From: Alicyclobacillus hesperidum
Lineage (GTDB): Bacteria > Bacillota > Bacilli > Alicyclobacillales > Alicyclobacillaceae
Length of the DNA stretch: 64,000 nucleotides
Assembly (NCBI RefSeq): GCF_900107035.1
Contig: NZ_FNOJ01000003.1
Coordinates: 186,001 to 250,000, forward strand
Direction of reading: 5' to 3'
Shown one piece after another: positions 3,878 to 45,830 of this stretch. The translations under genes were made by a program, and so were the position numbers. The first letter of the stretch is position 1. Each line of letters opens with the position of its first letter. Below the pieces are notes generated by a model. That model did no database searches. It saw only the letters and a list, made by a program, of their open reading frames with translations, and was not told the origin of the DNA.

Positions 3878-4777
3878 TCACGATATGCCGTTCGCCAATT
3901 GTTGACCGAGCCACTGTGTTATAGAATTCCATCCGTTGGGCGAAGCAATGGCCTGAAAGGCGGCCGACATCGAAAGGGCCTCCTCCCCTTGCTTGGCCAG
4001 GGCGGCTTGCCCTGCTACGCTCGGGTGCACGTCGTTCTGCAAAATATAGTTGCTATGCCCGGCAAACGCATCATAGGCGTCCGCAATCGCATCTCCGTAC
4101 TCGACGGCGTCTTTGGCAATCTGTACATTCGCAGCGCCGATAGCGGCCTCAGCGGCCATGTACAGCGAGCGATCCGACACTGGAATGGGATTGTACAAGT
4201 CGTATACGACGACAGTCGCCTTCGCATTAAGCGTATGGACGTCGCGCAAAATAGCCGCTACGTTTGTCGCAATGTCCTGCACACCGCTACTAAGCCGAGC
4301 AGCCAACTGTGTAGATTGAGCCGCTGTCAGCGAAACGTCGTGCCAATTCGCTGCACTTTCAGAAAGCAACGAGAGGGCTGGTTGCAGTAAATCGTTACTG
4401 CCAATATCGATGGTTACGATGTTGGCCTTTTGGACATCCGCCCGCATACTCGGATCTGATTGCAGCGCATGCAGCAGATTCGCGCTGGTCCACCCTGGAA
4501 CGCCGAGATCCATAACGTTGTCGTGTACTTTGCTCCCAATGAGATAGGGAAACGCAAGCTGCGAAGGCGCGCGGTTATTGCCAAGGTTGTAACCAAACGT
4601 GATGGAATCGCCGAGTGCCACGAGGTTTCCGACAACACGGTTCGCCATTTGGTGGGAAGCTGTCGCGTGAATATCGGCGACAGGCTTTGCCAACTGCTCG
4701 CCCACATGCATCTGCGCGGACCATGACAACATCGTGACAGAGGCGATTGAGATTGCAAGGGGACCTAATATCGTCAT
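3878..4777 (-). CDS. Secreted or anchored SGNH/GDSL hydrolase
   Basis: A 299-residue protein with an N-terminal hydrophobic stretch (about 4-22) that could be a signal peptide or anchor. Next comes block I GDSITFGYN with the nucleophile serine, a GSNDLLQP block with the asparagine of the oxyanion hole, and DVHPSVAGQ near the C-terminus carrying the catalytic Asp and His. SGNH enzymes hydrolyse esters of lipids, acylated sugars or peptidoglycan; the substrate here is not visible. The start ATG has GGGAG 7 bases upstream. It lies 69 bases before the MFS-helD pair and may be co-transcribed with it. Confidence 0.87.
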   Translation of the reverse strand: MTILGPLAISIASVTMLSWSAQMHVGEQLAKPVADIHATASHQMANRVVGNLVALGDSITFGYNLGNNRAPSQLAFPYLIGSKVHDNVMDLGVPGWTSANLLHALQSDPSMRADVQKANIVTIDIGSNDLLQPALSLLSESAANWHDVSLTAAQSTQLAARLSSGVQDIATNVAAILRDVHTLNAKATVVVYDLYNPIPVSDRSLYMAAEAAIGAANVQIAKDAVEYGDAIADAYDAFAGHSNYILQNDVHPSVAGQAALAKQGEEALSMSAAFQAIASPNGWNSITQWLGQQLANGIS

Positions 4778-4891
4778 CTGGAACTCCCACTTCCGTCCGC
4801 ATTCATTTCAGTTTGTAGATTCTCGCACCACAATCTATTCTCATTATAGGATTGCGTATGCGCGTTTGGAAGCACGTTTTGGAATTCGTTT

Positions 4892-4899
4892 GGTATACT
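4892..4899 (+). promoter_or_regulatory. Extended -10 promoter element
   Basis: TGGTATACT matches an extended -10 box (TGn plus TATACT, one mismatch to consensus; the full 9 bases start at 4891), 25 bases before the start codon of the next lipoprotein gene. No good -35 box is visible at 16-18 bases, which extended -10 promoters tolerate. Confidence 0.5.
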
Positions 4900-4923
4900 T
4901 TAAGAAATAGGGAGGCGATTGAC

Positions 4924-6159
4924 ATGCACGCGCGCGTTGTTTTGCTTGCATCCATGGTCGGCATCACAGGGTTGCTTGCAGGGTGTGGAGCAACGCCAAC
5001 CGAGCCGCCAGCAGCCGCCAGTGTCGTGCATGGACACGGTACCCAGGCGGCGGGGAGCGCACTGCAGCGAATTGCAGCCAAAGCAACAACGACTCCCGCG
5101 ACATTCGCGAACGCCGTACACGCCATTGATGCACAGATCCATATGTTTGACGATCGCGCGGGTGTGGCGTGGGGGTATCAAGGGAGCCACTTTGTGTTGT
5201 ATGCAACGGAAGACGGTGCACACACGTGGGTCCGCCAATCCCTGCCTCCCTTGCCTACCGACGATGTTGTGGCAAACGGCCCTAGCGGCGTCGACTATGT
5301 ATATCCAATCGTCTCGTCCAAACGCATGTGGTCCTTGGTGTGGATCGATACTGGTGAAGCGCACATCCTGACTACGCGCGACGGCGGCTCGACATGGAGT
5401 CCATCGACGTTCTCCCTTCCTGCCGGCGTGTCTCAGGTCGCATTTGGCGAGTGGCAAGGTGCAAAAGCAGGTTGGCTATTGTTCGAAGATGACGCCAGCG
5501 GCGGCGCCGCCGCGAAATATCTGTTTGCGACTACCGACGGCGGACAAGCTTGGCACATGGTGAACAATTCGCAGGATGAACTTGTCCACAACGGCTATGC
5601 CGCACGTCTGGATTTTGCCCCCAACGGCAAGACGGGCTTGTACGCAGGAGTCGACGATTTGACCAAAACGGTCAATGTCGTCGAAACGATAGACGGCGGT
5701 CTGCACTGGCACACAAGTGCATTGACGCTGCCATCCCAGGCTACCGCGCCTCCGGTTGTCGAGTTCGTCAAAGCGAATTCGAATCAATCCCTGATGGTGG
5801 CGTTCATGGTGCCGACAGCGAACGGCAATCAACTGTATGTCTGCACGTCCACGTACGGGAAAAATTGGACTGTCAACGATTTAATCGTAGGCCAAGTGCA
5901 AGCAATGTCCGCCATTGCACCCGATGGCCTTGTGTTGCTTGAATTGCGCAACAGCGAAGAAACGATTCTCCGCAGCTTGGACGACGGGCAAAGCTGGTAC
6001 ACGGTTGGTCATTCGCTACAGGGTAGCCTTGCCAGTGCAATTCATATTACGCTTGATATCGCGGATCCCGCGACATGGTATATACTTGCGCTCGACTCCA
6101 AACTTAATGCAACGCTCTTGCGCTCGCAGGATGGCGGCATGCACTGGCAGGTCATGTGA
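4924..6159 (+). CDS. Lipoprotein with Asp-box (BNR/YCF48-like) beta-propeller repeats
   Basis: A 411-residue protein from ATG 4924, which has GGAGG 6 bases upstream; the frame is open 24 codons further but overlaps the promoter. The N-terminus is a lipoprotein signal ending in the lipobox LLAGC, so the protein is anchored outside the membrane. The body carries at least six Asp-box style repeats (DGAHTW, DGGSTW, DGGQAW, DGGLHW, DDGQSW, DGGMHW) spaced as blades of a beta-propeller. Such folds occur in sialidases and in YCF48/HCF136 assembly factors, but no sialidase catalytic residues were recognised. A paralogous design is encoded at 11352. Function unknown, probably binding or assembly at the cell surface. 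Confidence 0.82.
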   Translation: MHARVVLLASMVGITGLLAGCGATPTEPPAAASVVHGHGTQAAGSALQRIAAKATTTPATFANAVHAIDAQIHMFDDRAGVAWGYQGSHFVLYATEDGAHTWVRQSLPPLPTDDVVANGPSGVDYVYPIVSSKRMWSLVWIDTGEAHILTTRDGGSTWSPSTFSLPAGVSQVAFGEWQGAKAGWLLFEDDASGGAAAKYLFATTDGGQAWHMVNNSQDELVHNGYAARLDFAPNGKTGLYAGVDDLTKTVNVVETIDGGLHWHTSALTLPSQATAPPVVEFVKANSNQSLMVAFMVPTANGNQLYVCTSTYGKNWTVNDLIVGQVQAMSAIAPDGLVLLELRNSEETILRSLDDGQSWYTVGHSLQGSLASAIHITLDIADPATWYILALDSKLNATLLRSQDGGMHWQVM

Positions 6160-6174
6160 TGAAATGGCGCGCAT

Positions 6175-6714
6175 TTACACGATCTCGGTGTGAAAGCAAC
6201 GCTGCATATGCTCTAAAAATAGCTCGCCTTGGTCCGTAAAGGTCGCGCAGCCAGCGCGGTGCACAACGGTCGCAAAACCAGCGTCGTACGCACCGCCAGC
6301 TGTGAGAAAGTCGCAGATGTCTGTGCAGACGCCGACAATGTGTACCCGCTCTACGCCGAAAGCGCGCAGGCGAACGGCGAGGTCGGTGCCAGAGAAGGCA
6401 TTGTAGCTGGCCTTGGGGACATACATCACGCTGTCGCGATCGCGCTCCCGGTCATACCAAGTGGCGAGGTCGCCGTACAGTTGCTGCCCCCACGTCCCTT
6501 TGACGTTGTGTGGCGGCCAATCGAGGAAATGTGGATCTCCTTCCTGATGCTCATCCATGCAGACGGCAACGATCTGTCCGTCTCTCACCATGCGATCCGC
6601 TAGCTCCACGATGTATGGAACAATCGCCTGTGCCGCTCGACCGGCGGTGAGGCTTCCCTCATCGTGCACAAAATCGTTTGACATGTCGACAATAAGTAAC
6701 GCTTCTTTGGCCAT
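6175..6714 (-). CDS. pncA: Nicotinamidase (isochorismatase fold)
   Basis: A 179-residue cysteine hydrolase. The catalytic triad residues are visible: Asp10 in LLIVDMSNDF, the lysine of VPKASYNAF, and the cysteine of VGVCTDICDF. The PPHNVKGTWGQQLYG block and AFSGTDL match the Bacillus YueJ/PncA branch closely, so nicotinamide to nicotinate (NAD salvage) is the likely reaction. The start at 6714 was chosen at MAKEALLIVD to match family length; a GGGGG stretch lies upstream. The frame remains open 26 codons further but without support. It is divergent from trmB, and its stop lies 15 bases past the end of the convergent lipoprotein gene. Confidence 0.88.
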   Translation of the reverse strand: MAKEALLIVDMSNDFVHDEGSLTAGRAAQAIVPYIVELADRMVRDGQIVAVCMDEHQEGDPHFLDWPPHNVKGTWGQQLYGDLATWYDRERDRDSVMYVPKASYNAFSGTDLAVRLRAFGVERVHIVGVCTDICDFLTAGGAYDAGFATVVHRAGCATFTDQGELFLEHMQRCFHTEIV

Positions 6715-40569: not shown

Positions 40570-41091
40570 TTATTTCGACAATCGGGCTGCGCGTAGCGCT
40601 TCGCCCATACCTGCCAAGAATTCAAACAGATATGCAATCGCCGTGTTCACACTTGGGTCCTGAAACTTGGCTAGCAAATCGTATATCCCCAGCGGGCGTG
40701 CGCCGCTTTCCGAAACACTCACAGCAGTTCCGTCGTCCTTGCCAGCGACCCGATTGACGCCTGCAGTCAGTGCGGTCAAAAGCGTGGAAACACTGTCCGG
40801 ATCGAGCTTGCCTACCCATTGCAACAAAGTGATTGCGATTTGTAAAGTGGAAATGCCACTTGGCGTGTTCAAGGCCTCGACCCCGCGGGCCAAAACCTGG
40901 TCACCTCGTTCCACCATCGCGGTGAATAGCGGAAGCAATCCTTTGTCCTCAAGCGCCCCGAGCAATCTCAAGCCAGCGATGACGCCTTCTTCATCGGAAG
41001 CCAGTTGTGCCATGACACGTTCGTGCGTGGACTGGCGTGACTTGATAGCGGCAGTCTGCGGCCGCTGAATGGATGTAATAGGCTCGCCCAT
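40570..41091 (-). CDS. DUF1641 protein of the formate dehydrogenase operon
   Basis: A 173-residue mostly helical protein. DUF1641 proteins (B. subtilis YrhD/YjgD) are encoded next to formate dehydrogenase-like oxidoreductases and are thought to be accessory or small-subunit partners. The conserved parts here are LRLLGALEDKGLLPLFTAMVERG and GIYDLLAKFQDPSVNTAIAYLFEFLAGMG. The gene starts 21 bases past fdhA. No catalytic function is known. Confidence 0.82.
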   Translation of the reverse strand: MGEPITSIQRPQTAAIKSRQSTHERVMAQLASDEEGVIAGLRLLGALEDKGLLPLFTAMVERGDQVLARGVEALNTPSGISTLQIAITLLQWVGKLDPDSVSTLLTALTAGVNRVAGKDDGTAVSVSESGARPLGIYDLLAKFQDPSVNTAIAYLFEFLAGMGEALRAARLSK

Positions 41092-41112: not shown

Positions 41113-44058
41113 TTATGAACGGCGGTCTGTCACTAGTGGTGCGTAGTCTGCCCGCCCCCACTTTTGCTCCACATTGACGCCAGGCTGTGGGTTCGGCTTA
41201 CCTAAGCGGAAATTCCCTGTCTTTATCGGGGATTCTCCCTTCGCCTCGATGACTTCCATGCGCACCCGCATCTCCTTGTACGCCGGAGTGAACGTCGCCG
41301 TGTCGTGATCGCTTGACGTCAACAGGTTGACGGCCTCTTCGTCGCGTCGGGACAACAGTGGAAGATAGATTTTGTTCCCGGATACACGATCTGTTACGAC
41401 CACGCGCACCTTCACGCGTCCGTGAGGCGAAATGAGACGGACAAGTGCGCCATTTGCAATCTTGCGATCCGCCGCCAATGCAGGTGAGATTTCGACATAT
41501 GTTTCCGGTACCTTCGCGTGGATGCCAGGTACGCGGCTCGTCATATTTCCCTCATGGAAGTGCTCCAACAGGCGGCCATTGTTCAGCTCAAGATCGTATT
41601 CGTCCGCAACTGTGATAGGTGGTGTCCAGGCGACCGGATATAAGCGCGCTTTTTTGTCCGCAAAGGCGAAACCGTCCACATATAAGAGGGGCGTATCTGT
41701 ACCGTCCGCCGCGACGGGCCACTGTAAGCTACGATAGCCTTCGAGTCGGCCATAGGTCGCACCTTTGAATAACTCCGTAAGACCACAAGCCTCCTCGAAG
41801 ATCTCCTGTGGCGATGTATATTGCCAATTCGCGCCGAATCGATTGGCGACCAGTTGTATGATTTCCCAATCCGGCTTTGCCTGGCCGAGTGGCTCCAGAA
41901 CCCGATACAAGCGCTGGATTCTACGTTCTGTATTGGTGAACGTGCCTTCCTTTTCTAAGCTCGGGCACGCCGGCAAAATGACATCCGCGAATTGAGCCGT
42001 TTTACTAAAAAACACGTCCTGTACGACAAAAAACTCAAGTTTTGTGAACGCCTGCTGCACATAGTTTGCGTTGGAATCGACCACCGCCATGTCTTCACCC
42101 ACGAGATACAAGGCCTTGAGCTTACCTTCGTGAATAGCATCGACCATTTGGTGGTTGTTGAGGCCCGGCGTGATCGGTAAGGGCGTTTTCCACGCCTGTT
42201 CATATTTCCGGCGAATCGCCTCATTGGCCACTGGCTCATACCCCGGGAAAAATGTCGGTGCACAGCCCATATCGCCCGCACCTTGTACGTTGTTGTGCCC
42301 CCGCAACGGGTATGCACCTGTGCCAGGCCGCGCGACATTTCCGGTCACCAAGAGCAGGTTGCAAATTGCAGTACTCGTGTCGGAACCGCCGACGTGTTGT
42401 GTGACGCCCATCGCCCAGCAGATTGACACCCGCTCCGCCGCCATAATCATCTCGGCGATGCGAATCAGTTCTGCCTCACGCACTCCGCAAACTTCACTTG
42501 CGTGCGCAAGCGTAAACGCATCCAGCGAGCGCACGAACTCCGCAAAGCCATTTACGCGATCACGCAGGAAAAGTTGATCGTGCTTGCCGCAGTCAATAAT
42601 GTATTTCGTCACGGCGGACAGCCACACGAGATCGGTTCCCTGGCGCGGCTGTAAAAACAGATCGGCCCGTTCTGCCATAATATTGCGGCGGACATCGGCG
42701 ACAATCAGTTTTTGTCCTCGCTTCTTTTGCGCACGGCGCAGGCGCGTCGATAGCACCGGGTGCGCCTCGGCCGGATTCGCGCCGACAATGATGACGAGAT
42801 CGGCCAACTCGAGATCGCGGATCGATCCGGTGTCGCCCCCAAGTCCCATCGTCCGCCGCAGGGCTTCCGTTGCCGGAGATTGACAGTAGCGCGAACAGTT
42901 GTCGATGTTATTGGTAAACATCACGGAGCGAGCCAACTTTTGCATCAAGTAATTTTCCTCGTTGGTCGACTTGGATGAGGCAATCCATCCGACCGCGTCG
43001 TACCCATCGCGGGCTTGAATCGCCTTGATGCGCGTTTCAATAACATCCAGCGCCTCGTCCCAGGTCACGCTGTAAAAGGCGTCGCCGCGACGAACCAACG
43101 GTTCGACAATGCGCTCCTCGCTATTGACAAAGTCCCATCCAAACTTACCTTTCACGCACGTCGAGATTTGGTTTGCGGGCGCTTCCATCCGAGGCTCCAC
43201 TTTGAGGATGTCACGGCCCTTCGTCCACACGTCAAACGAACAGCCCACACCACAGTAGGTACAGACCGTCTTGGTTTTACGGATGCGCGCCTCCCGCAAT
43301 TCCGCTTCGATTTCCGAGATTGCAAAAATCGATGAATAGCCGGGCTCGACCTGTTTCGTGATATCGATCATTTGGCTCAAGGTGCCCGCTTCAATCCCGG
43401 TCAGGTATCCCGCCTCTCCCAGCATCGATTTTTCCATCAAGGCATTGCATGGACAAACGGTTACACAGTGGCCACATGAAACACAGGACGATTCATTGAT
43501 GGGCACATCTTGATCCCAAATGACACGCGGCTGCTCACGTGACCAGTCGATGGAGAGCACTTCGCTGACCTGCAAGTTCTGGCAAGCCTCGACACAGCGC
43601 CCACACAAAATACATTGGTTCGGATCGTATCGATAAAAAGGATTGCTCATATCGACTTCATAGGGCTTTGGTGTAAAAGGATAGGCTTGATGCTCGATGC
43701 CCATCTTCATCACGGTGTTGTGCAGAGTGCAGTTCTTATTATTGTTATCACACACCGTGCAATACAGGTCGTGATTTTGCAAAATCCGATCCATCGCTTC
43801 TTTCCGTGCGTAGCGGGCAGCGACGGACTTTGTTTGAATCTGCATGCCAGATGCAACTTGCGTAGCACAAGCGCGCACCAATTGACCATCGACCTGCGCG
43901 ATGCACGTATCGCACGTTTCGATAGGTCCAAGTGCAGGATGGTAACACACGTGCGGATGATCCACGCCGCTGTCGAGAATCGCGTCTAAAACGGACGCCC
44001 CGGATGGTACCCAGTGCTCCTGCCCGTCAATCACGACCCGAATGATTCCTTCCTTCAC
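41113..44058 (-). CDS. fdhA: Formate dehydrogenase-like molybdenum oxidoreductase, large subunit
   Basis: A 981-residue protein starting at GTG 44058 behind AAGGAGGTCATAGCC. Order of domains: [2Fe-2S] ferredoxin domain (CYHPALGPIETCDTC), His/Cys cluster segment, two [4Fe-4S] motifs (CILCGRCVEAC and CVSCGHCVTVCPC), the molybdopterin-proximal cluster CTYCGVGCSFDVW, then the bis-MGD domains. The Mo-ligand region reads DNCSRYCQSPATEAL: cysteine in place of selenocysteine, followed by Gln where classical FdhF has His. No TGA is read through. This is the YjgC/YrhE type soluble NAD-linked enzyme, probably formate to CO2. It is flanked by focA and DUF1641. Confidence 0.9.
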   Translation of the reverse strand: MKEGIIRVVIDGQEHWVPSGASVLDAILDSGVDHPHVCYHPALGPIETCDTCIAQVDGQLVRACATQVASGMQIQTKSVAARYARKEAMDRILQNHDLYCTVCDNNNKNCTLHNTVMKMGIEHQAYPFTPKPYEVDMSNPFYRYDPNQCILCGRCVEACQNLQVSEVLSIDWSREQPRVIWDQDVPINESSCVSCGHCVTVCPCNALMEKSMLGEAGYLTGIEAGTLSQMIDITKQVEPGYSSIFAISEIEAELREARIRKTKTVCTYCGVGCSFDVWTKGRDILKVEPRMEAPANQISTCVKGKFGWDFVNSEERIVEPLVRRGDAFYSVTWDEALDVIETRIKAIQARDGYDAVGWIASSKSTNEENYLMQKLARSVMFTNNIDNCSRYCQSPATEALRRTMGLGGDTGSIRDLELADLVIIVGANPAEAHPVLSTRLRRAQKKRGQKLIVADVRRNIMAERADLFLQPRQGTDLVWLSAVTKYIIDCGKHDQLFLRDRVNGFAEFVRSLDAFTLAHASEVCGVREAELIRIAEMIMAAERVSICWAMGVTQHVGGSDTSTAICNLLLVTGNVARPGTGAYPLRGHNNVQGAGDMGCAPTFFPGYEPVANEAIRRKYEQAWKTPLPITPGLNNHQMVDAIHEGKLKALYLVGEDMAVVDSNANYVQQAFTKLEFFVVQDVFFSKTAQFADVILPACPSLEKEGTFTNTERRIQRLYRVLEPLGQAKPDWEIIQLVANRFGANWQYTSPQEIFEEACGLTELFKGATYGRLEGYRSLQWPVAADGTDTPLLYVDGFAFADKKARLYPVAWTPPITVADEYDLELNNGRLLEHFHEGNMTSRVPGIHAKVPETYVEISPALAADRKIANGALVRLISPHGRVKVRVVVTDRVSGNKIYLPLLSRRDEEAVNLLTSSDHDTATFTPAYKEMRVRMEVIEAKGESPIKTGNFRLGKPNPQPGVNVEQKWGRADYAPLVTDRRS

Positions 44059-44121
44059 GGCTATGACCTCCTTGCTTTTATCGCAAATGATGTAGCTGAC
44101 TTCGGAGAATGTGACAAGAAA

Positions 44122-44147
44122 CCGCGCCAAAGTCATTCTTGGCGCGG
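44122..44147 (-). other. Perfect hairpin between focA and fdhA
   Basis: CCGCGCCAA (44122-44130) and TTGGCGCGG (44139-44147) form a 9-bp GC-rich stem with an 8-base loop in the 117-base gap. On the minus strand only TTTCTTG follows. It could be a partial terminator or an mRNA-stabilising hairpin setting the focA to fdhA ratio. Confidence 0.6.
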
Positions 44148-44175: not shown

Positions 44176-44970
44176 TCAGCCCGTCGTGGTGTCCCCGGCT
44201 TTTCGCATGTAGACCAGAAAATATGCAGTCGCGGTGAACAGCCAGCCACCGATGGCATTGCCAATAAACGCGCCAATCCACTCGACGATGATTTGGCCCC
44301 ATGAAATGGGTGCGCCAACCCATAGACCCGCCGGTAGCACAAACATGTTAGCAACAACGTGTTGAAAGCCGATCGCGACAAAGGTCATGATGGGAAACCA
44401 GATAGCGAGAATCTTGCCTCCAATATCCTTTGCGCCATACGCCATCCATACGGCGAGACAAACCAGCCAGTTACACCCAATGGCGGATAAGATGGTCGAG
44501 CCAAACGGGAGTTTTGCCTTGGCGGTCGCCAGCGCAATGACGGTCGTCTTAAACGGATCCTCGGTGAGCAGATGTGCACCCAACCCGAAAACACCAGCGA
44601 CAAACAACGCACCAAGCAAATTGCCAATAAGCACCCAAAACCAGTTGTACACAAGGCCGCCGATACCAATTTTCTTCGCGTGCAGCGCGAGAGGTAACGT
44701 CATCATGTTGCCTGTCAAAAGCTCTGCTCCGGCGATCACGACCAACATCAGGCCGACCGGGAAGACGGCGCCGCCCAATAGACTCTTGATGGACGCCAAA
44801 CTGTCTGGCAAGCTCGCAGTCACGCGAATGTCCACCAGAAATCCAAGCGCGATAAACGCCCCTGCCAAAAAACCAAGAATCAACAGTTTCCACCATGACT
44901 GTTTTGCCTTGTCGTGGCCGATGGCGGCAGCGGTTTGGGCGATTTCCGCCGGAGTCAAGAAATTGCTCAT
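44176..44970 (-). CDS. focA: Formate/nitrite transporter
   Basis: A 264-residue FNT-family channel with six hydrophobic segments. The start block FLTPAEIAQTAAAIGHDKA, the GAELLTGNMMTLPLA segment and VGFQHVVANMF-like AIGFQHVVANMFVLPAG late in the chain carry the family signatures, including the pore histidine. ATG 44970 has AGAAAGGTGG upstream. Position ahead of fdhA supports formate as substrate: import for oxidation, or efflux. It is preceded by a structured leader with a terminator. Confidence 0.92.
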   Translation of the reverse strand: MSNFLTPAEIAQTAAAIGHDKAKQSWWKLLILGFLAGAFIALGFLVDIRVTASLPDSLASIKSLLGGAVFPVGLMLVVIAGAELLTGNMMTLPLALHAKKIGIGGLVYNWFWVLIGNLLGALFVAGVFGLGAHLLTEDPFKTTVIALATAKAKLPFGSTILSAIGCNWLVCLAVWMAYGAKDIGGKILAIWFPIMTFVAIGFQHVVANMFVLPAGLWVGAPISWGQIIVEWIGAFIGNAIGGWLFTATAYFLVYMRKAGDTTTG

Positions 44971-45089
44971 CCAAATTCCACCTTTCTGGATTTTTTCGCT
45001 GCTCGATCGCGCATGAACAGGCATAGGATGCTTCAATTCGGCCGGAAAATGAAAAATCATGACAGGATTCCATCAGAGCCAAAGAACAC

Positions 45090-45231
45090 AAAAAAGGCAC
45101 AAATTGTCCGCCAAAGCAGTCAACTTGTGCCGATGTGTTTGCCTGCAGAGCCTACAGGCCTACCATACAAGCGTCGAGCCTTTTGTAACGCGCGCACTCA
45201 CACGAATGTGCTCGCCACATGTCATATGATA
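45090..45231 (-). promoter_or_regulatory. Structured leader with intrinsic terminator upstream of focA-fdhA
   Basis: An extended -10 box TGCTATCAT lies at 45226-45234 (minus strand). The leader then contains a UUCG-capped hairpin (45199-45210), an 8-bp hairpin with a triloop (45141-45148 with 45152-45159), and a 10-bp terminator stem with one mismatch (45096-45106 with 45121-45131) followed by six U (45090-45095). The terminator lies about 120 bases before the focA ATG, so it must be bypassed for expression. CTTGT at 45167-45171 could pair with the terminator's 5' arm, a weak antiterminator candidate. I recognise no known riboswitch class. Confidence 0.55.
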
Positions 45232-45298
45232 GCACAGTTTAGTTATGAAAGCGAATTCAACAGAAAAATTGACTAGCCCCCATAGATATGATCACACC

Positions 45299-45694
45299 TT
45301 ACGCTTCATCTGTGGCGTCGGTCGCGTTTGTACAAGATGGCGCACCTTGCCCAATTGGCTTTTCGAAAATAAAGACGGAAACGCCCATATCCTCTTCAAC
45401 CTTGAAGTCAGAGAACAGGTACAACATCTTTGAGCCAGCCAGTTCCTCCATGCCTTCCGGGACTTTTTTCGCATACAATGCCTGAATCATATTGGTACGA
45501 GCCGATCTGACAATTTCCGCGCCTTCCGGTGTACGGCTGATAAATTTCTCTGTCGGCGTTAAATTCCCTTGCAAGATGGAGATGGCCATGTTGTCGACAA
45601 ACACGGTATGAATGCGCTCCGGTCCCTTGCCGAAACACTCTTTGCGCACACGCCGCACGATCTCGTTAAATGCTTGTTCGCGGCTTTTCGCCAT
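45299..45694 (-). CDS. DUF2294 / MpsC-family protein
   Basis: A 131-residue protein whose sequence (AFNEIVRRVRKECFGKGPERIHTVFVDNMAISILQGNLTPTEK, ARTNMIQALY, DFKVEEDMGVSVFIFE) matches the DUF2294 family, now linked by name to the MpsC component of a Na+-translocating membrane-potential system. Stand-alone copies next to formate dehydrogenase genes are, to my knowledge, common in Bacilli. ATG 45694 was preferred over 45700 because AGGGGAG abuts the latter too closely. It precedes the focA leader on the same strand. Confidence 0.8.
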   Translation of the reverse strand: MAKSREQAFNEIVRRVRKECFGKGPERIHTVFVDNMAISILQGNLTPTEKFISRTPEGAEIVRSARTNMIQALYAKKVPEGMEELAGSKMLYLFSDFKVEEDMGVSVFIFEKPIGQGAPSCTNATDATDEA

Positions 45695-45830
45695 GTTCAT
45701 CTCCCCTGATCCTCGCGTCCTTAGTTTGTAATTGTATTCGCTTATCTTCCATAAGCCAATAGAAGCAATTTGCTACTCCCTTGGCCATAGCACGCAATTG
45801 GCGTACAGTTGCGACAGGAGGCGATCAATC

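Follow-up and report, generated by a model that had tools for sequence, protein, structure and literature searches.

A terminator-bearing leader RNA family that marks a formate regulon across Bacilli

The focA-fdhA-forE genes of Alicyclobacillus hesperidum are preceded by a structured leader RNA, and this leader represents an RNA family that is absent from Rfam, has no description as a family in the open-licence literature searched, and marks a formate regulon across Bacilli. It lies on the minus strand at positions 45219-45090 of the 64,000-nucleotide stretch of DNA that was analysed here, called the window, and its 130 nt comprise a hairpin P1, a linker, a second hairpin P2 and an intrinsic terminator with a U6 tail (Table 1). 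The structure, covariation, genomic position, regulon and co-occurrence with the gene yrhF reported below are all computed. The leader is very probably a cis-acting transcription attenuator of the formate regulon, and the best overall explanation, to which we assign a somewhat better than even chance, is an attenuator whose twin apices are bound by the DUF2294 protein YrhF.

Structure and conservation of the leader

From the letters of the window, a first-pass annotation had proposed that focA-fdhA is controlled by a structured, terminator-bearing leader with the layout of a riboswitch or of an attenuator bound by a protein. On the minus strand between 45234 and 44970, the extended −10 element, two hairpins, the terminator and its U6 tract were all found. 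Between the end of the U-tract and the focA ATG (44970) there are 119 nt, in line with the proposed distance of about 120 bases or more, and the 8-bp triloop hairpin is GCCUGUAG-GCU-CUGCAGGC at 45159-45141. As for the UUCG-capped hairpin, the stretch CACA-UUCG-UGUG is indeed there, but the fold that is conserved is instead P1, closed by CAUUC/GAGUG and with the loop GUGU. In the window and in most of the 93 copies aligned below, the terminator lies between the promoter and the first codon, on the same strand. In the A. acidocaldarius clade TGNTATAAT occupies the same promoter position. A short conserved open frame (~MKxxALHKV...) is also seen in that clade (L012-L017) between the terminator and focA, which is possibly a leader peptide.

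Table 1. Features of the leader and its neighbourhood in the window
Feature	Position	Strand	Basis
Extended −10 promoter TGCTATCAT	45226..45234	−	sequence
Hairpin P1, 36 nt	45184..45219	−	covariation, 12/14 pairs changed on both sides
Linker	45167..45183	−	alignment; folds of truncated RNA
Hairpin P2, 2x2 internal loop, apex GUA..UGC (conserved U-G wobble)	45133..45166	−	covariation, 11/13 pairs changed on both sides
Intrinsic terminator hairpin	45096..45131	−	covariation, 13/13 pairs changed on both sides
Terminator U6 tract	45090..45095	−	sequence
focA ribosome binding site AGAAAGGTGG	44978..44987	−	sequence
focA, formate/nitrite family transporter	44176..44970	−	PF01226 5.4e-78; TIGR00790 above cut-off
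fdhA, YrhE/ForC-type formate dehydrogenase alpha; actual start may be further downstream	41113..44136	−	TIGR01591 4.3e-239
DUF1641 protein, probable ForE partner subunit	40570..41091	−	PF07849; ForE role from PMC8808070
DUF2294 (Pfam 'MpsC') gene, YrhF type, candidate RNA-binding regulator	45299..45700	−	PF10057 1.7e-31; RNA co-occurrence

The 143-nt stretch folds with a minimum free energy of −59.4 kcal/mol, compared to −44.4 ± 4.1 kcal/mol for dinucleotide shuffles (z = −3.6), and none of the 200 shuffles is as stable. Folded individually, 71 non-redundant homologues have a mean z of −6.3, which becomes −3.3 if P1-P2 is folded and the terminator left out. For the 93 copies aligned to the covariance model R3 (see below), 92.0% of 3394 cells are paired, against 64.4% for shuffles and at most 52.5% with slid partners, and 36 of the 40 base pairs show changes on both sides with the pairing kept; on any of five measures, none of 500 shuffles reached the observed value. 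It should be kept in mind that this alignment was fitted to the R3 model and leans therefore towards its structure. As a counterweight, the first models were built from few sequences, and the 71 non-redundant copies fold well without any alignment. The close Alicyclobacillus copies have few variable positions, so the structure cannot be judged from the genus alone; among the leaders of fdhA and focA in more distant relatives, where the annotation had suggested looking, conserved structure with strong covariation is what we found.

The apices of the two hairpins carry one and the same three-pair signature in the 71 non-redundant copies, seen in P1 of the window at 45208-45195. It consists of a U-G wobble flanked by an R-Y pair and a loop-adjacent W-W pair. 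The U-G is present in 56 of the 71 copies for P1 and in 57 for P2, the position being generally Y-G, and the neighbouring pairs covary freely.

The first-pass annotation could not match the leader to any RNA class known to it. Rfam gave the same answer, with no match at the gathering threshold in the whole window or in nine homologous loci, and best matches at the chance level when the threshold was relaxed for the window. A search of open-licence papers for a formate riboswitch or for attenuation of formate dehydrogenase returned nothing relevant.

Distribution and target genes

When 61 related genomes were searched at the DNA level, nine proved to contain the leader, namely the window's own and those of eight congeners, and in each it lies between a DUF2294 gene and focA-fdhA. 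The conserved block extends from the promoter to the U-tract, and the following 120-130 nt are variable. A covariance model built from nine sequences (R1) matched diverged copies before focA in five more Alicyclobacillus genomes, as well as copies in two other genera of the family, g10 and g7. In g7 a pair of divergent copies stands on either side of the DUF2294 gene; fdhA follows one of them, and a gene for a SatP-like membrane protein the other. A second model (R2) extended the family to the genera g3 and g15 and, on 80 fdhA loci of named genomes, reached copies well beyond the bacterial family, in two Bacillus strains, in Domibacillus and in Gottfriedia, where fdhA and focA are each preceded by one; further copies, in B. 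paralicheniformis and Priestia koreensis, came from a descriptor scan.

With a third model (R3), before whose construction an antisense match in L051 (E 0.04) was left out, the RNA is found in 43 or more of the 398 Bacilli genomes sampled and in 20 of 145 genera. Searches on this scale evaluate only a small number of candidates in each genome and overlook weaker copies, 16 of which were recovered by a focused search. Within Bacillus, R3 matches 23 of 41 genomes. In a sample of 398 genomes taken across the phylum, three were matched, the window's own and two Bacilli, with none outside Bacilli. The annotation was correct about the kind of element, and the phenomenon is much larger than it had supposed. 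One match, in L073 (genome G010, 24.7 bits), was dropped as a chance match to a terminator. Five fdhA leaders missed by R3 (L084, L085, L086, L111 and L153) have a similar AUUGGU/P2/terminator layout and are probably further subtypes of the RNA; they adjoin DUF2294 genes whose products are paralogues with 36-45% identity, or 61% for L153.

We now consider the genes that follow the RNA, which lies directly 5' of its targets and on their strand, with a gap of ca 55 nt between terminator and focA in g10. Formate genes come next in 88 of the 93 aligned copies: the first downstream gene is fdhA in 44 cases (one of them a distant relative, 29%), focA in 34, a SatP-like gene in 5 (with an insertion element in between in one case), an OFA-group (oxalate/formate antiport) MFS transporter in 4, and fdhD in 1. 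The OFA-group transporter is labelled L-lactate transporter by NCBIfam. The other copies precede a ThiF-family (moeB-like) gene (2) and a glycine-transporter family gene (1) or have no assignment (2), and one additional copy stands before moaA in Paenibacillus filicis.

Some individual loci deserve mention. In genome G061 (L069 4330-7077) a transposase gene at 4760-6370 (minus) separates the RNA from the SatP-like gene, which the RNA precedes in the related genome G016. Genome G202 has two copies 10 kb apart (L178 4995-5131 and L181 4997-5130, both minus), one before the glycine-transporter family gene (PF03458) and the other without a close downstream gene. The protein is called SatP-like because of a Pfam match to GPR1/FUN34/YaaH that stays below threshold (E 0.001), and its structure model is unusable (pLDDT 45). 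The membrane protein under the RNA in L054 (1773-2375, plus) and its orthologues reach no family above cut-off and faintly resemble GPR1/FUN34/YaaH (acetate/succinate transport); they are a candidate new family of formate or acetate transporters.

The DUF2294 protein YrhF and the Bacillus subtilis copies

A YrhF-type DUF2294 gene, defined by ca 55% or more identity to the window's DUF2294 protein, is present in 57 of the same 398 Bacilli genomes. It occurs in 41 of the 43 RNA-positive genomes and in 16 of the other 355 (Fisher 3e-40). A focused search of the 7 kb around yrhF in those 16 genomes revealed the RNA in every one of them, with E-values of 0.0012 or better in 15 and 0.054 in one, such that all 57 carriers of yrhF have the RNA. 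The two RNA-positive genomes without yrhF (G221 and G295) contain low-scoring copies in which P2 appears to have decayed. The gene is never the first one downstream of the RNA (0 of 93 copies), as expected of a regulator and not of a target; in Alicyclobacillus its stop codon is ca 80 nt upstream of the leader, on the same strand. The presence of fdhA alone does not predict the RNA: no copy was detected at most of the 71 named fdhA loci that have no YrhF-type gene next to them. Taken with the twin apices, this pattern suggests that the attenuator is bound by a protein and that this protein is YrhF; for the latter we see an even chance or slightly better.

Several observations speak against this assignment. 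Domibacillus indicus has two well-formed copies (R3 scores of 73.7 and 72.4 bits), and a YrhF-type protein was not found in its draft genome. Two g3 genomes with the RNA before a SatP-like gene contain only other DUF2294 paralogues. The protein is also acidic to neutral in most species (pI 5.3-8.9). A PDB sequence search with DUF2294 gave no solved relative, and Foldseek with the predicted fold gave no significant match and no clear RNA-binding protein among the matches listed. The best Z-score for the predicted fold is a middling 6.9, for the TRAPP subunit Bet3, and no function of DUF2294 follows from fold matches of this kind. Pfam calls the family of the window's gene MpsC (Na+-translocating system; part of the MpsABC bicarbonate transporter). 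Deletion of mpsC in S. aureus is without phenotype (PMC6689103), which means that the Pfam name gives no function and misleads annotation. The YrhF protein and its mRNA are known to be targets of the small RNA RoxS (PMC8216469).

The closest parallel is provided by the targets of ANTAR-domain proteins of the EutV/NasR type, which are two-hairpin antiterminators whose hexaloops follow an A1-G4 rule. Like these, the leader has two hairpins with a common apical motif before a terminator in the 71 non-redundant copies, the second hairpin being next to or overlapping the intrinsic terminator, and a dedicated protein is encoded nearby. The leader differs in its apical signature, which is R-Y / U-G / W-W with a G usually two bases later in place of the A1-G4 hexaloop, and in the protein linked to it, which is a DUF2294 protein, unlike the ANTAR partner. 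A Pfam scan of the window's DUF2294 protein gave PF10057 as the sole match and no ANTAR domain.

Two copies are present in a searched genome of 4,215,606 bp, which we take to be that of B. subtilis strain 168. One (2781022-2781172, plus) precedes yrhE (fdhA) and the other (2780317-2780456, minus) precedes yrhG (focA), and yrhF lies between them. An undescribed structured leader is hereby assigned to a coherent formate regulon in the class that holds this model organism, in which both copies are testable at once. The yrhE copy coincides with a published 139-nt RNA at 2781029-2781167, termed 'New sRNA or yrhE leader region', which was obtained by Hfq co-immunoprecipitation and has the top enrichment in the table of uncharacterised leaders of PMC3574147. 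Cells thus contain an RNA that has the length and position predicted. It is by position a member of the present family; in the available portion of PMC3574147 it appears only as a transcript of unknown function, with no structure, family, regulon or partner given, and the family provides a candidate role for this strongly Hfq-enriched RNA. The ncr2184/ncr60 RNA of the same paper lies at the opposite end of yrhG and is not the copy found here. An FdhA of this type and its DUF1641 partner form a formate:menaquinone oxidoreductase in B. subtilis (PMC8808070). In the same work forCE2 seemed not to be expressed under formate induction or anaerobiosis, which we count against the best overall explanation.

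Mechanism and alternative explanations

In the mechanism that we propose, the RNA polymerase would start just 5' of P1 and make P1 and then P2, after which transcription would either stop at the terminator, to yield a stable RNA of 130-150 nt, or continue into focA-fdhA. The 3' strand of P2 borders on the terminator 5' arm or overlaps with it, and P2 with its extension would pair with or abut this arm, such that P2 and the terminator would compete. A putative antiterminator is offered by UCGAC in the linker (45177-45173), which could base-pair with GUUGA in the same arm; in the alignment, UCAAU and UCGGC of relatives preserve this pairing. When the RNA is folded with the terminator 3' arm absent, the 5' arm is predicted to pair with the extended P2 (at least 3 nt) in 89% of the non-redundant copies, compared to 64% with shuffled linkers, a modest excess that favours such competition, though not strongly. 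The YrhF-type protein would bind the twin apices of P1 and P2, as at the two-hairpin ANTAR targets, and would then hold the antiterminator, leading to read-through in the presence of formate or a related signal. From these patterns we infer YrhF as the binder and sensor, formate as the signal and gene activation as the effect of binding, and an RNA-binding YrhF is favoured over a riboswitch that senses formate directly. More tentatively, and with a chance that we put somewhat below even, DUF2294 proteins of the YrhF type could be a new family of formate-sensing RNA-binding antiterminators, with the RNA as their twin-hairpin target for formate uptake, oxidation and cofactor supply across Bacilli, including B. 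subtilis. An RNA-binding regulator would be the first function for the widespread DUF2294 family.

The main competitor is a riboswitch in which P1-P2 act as the aptamer for direct binding of formate, or of a metabolite linked to it, and so keep the terminator from forming, YrhF being merely another protein of the formate module. The aptamer-like internal loops, and conserved non-canonical positions within otherwise covarying helices, would fit this, as would the facts that nearly all targets concern formate or the enzyme that oxidises it and that a few genomes have the RNA without a YrhF-type DUF2294. Were this true, a very small ion, formate, would be sensed by a riboswitch, and the small size of the ligand is itself a difficulty. 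The RNA follows yrhF and not fdhA, its copies appear decayed in the two genomes that lack yrhF, and the twin apices point to a protein site, so that we regard a riboswitch as unlikely, although well worth considering. Distinctly less probable is an attenuator that senses the molybdenum cofactor, molybdate or the cytoplasmic pH and not formate. The occurrence of moaA, ThiF/moeB-like and fdhD genes among the targets is in its favour, and so is the increase of yrhEFG with benzoate and at low pH in B. subtilis (PMC2788229). However, about half of the targets are transporters that need no cofactor (focA, OFA, SatP-like). The Moco riboswitch (Moco RNA motif in Rfam) is likewise a leader RNA tied to molybdoenzyme and Moco genes, and its Rfam model finds no match in the window at the gathering or relaxed threshold and none in the nine homologous loci at the gathering one.

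Two further explanations were considered. The RNA might be a trans-acting small RNA that lies beside formate genes by chance, as its own promoter and terminator and the Hfq association of the yrhE copy could indicate. This is very improbable, because the RNA and the next gene share a strand and lie close together, as in g10, and because two-copy genomes place the copies before two different formate genes; the Hfq association also loses weight, since known riboswitch leaders come down with Hfq in PMC3574147 as well. The first-pass annotation had finally allowed that the element be only the terminator of the upstream DUF2294 gene, which the short distance from the stop codon and the common strand in Alicyclobacillus would permit. 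This reading was rejected and retains hardly any probability: P1 and P2 show covariation and conservation, Bacillus and other genera have the RNA before fdhA in divergent orientation to yrhF, and the g7 copies are divergent and flank the gene. Read-through from the DUF2294 gene may nevertheless end at this terminator.
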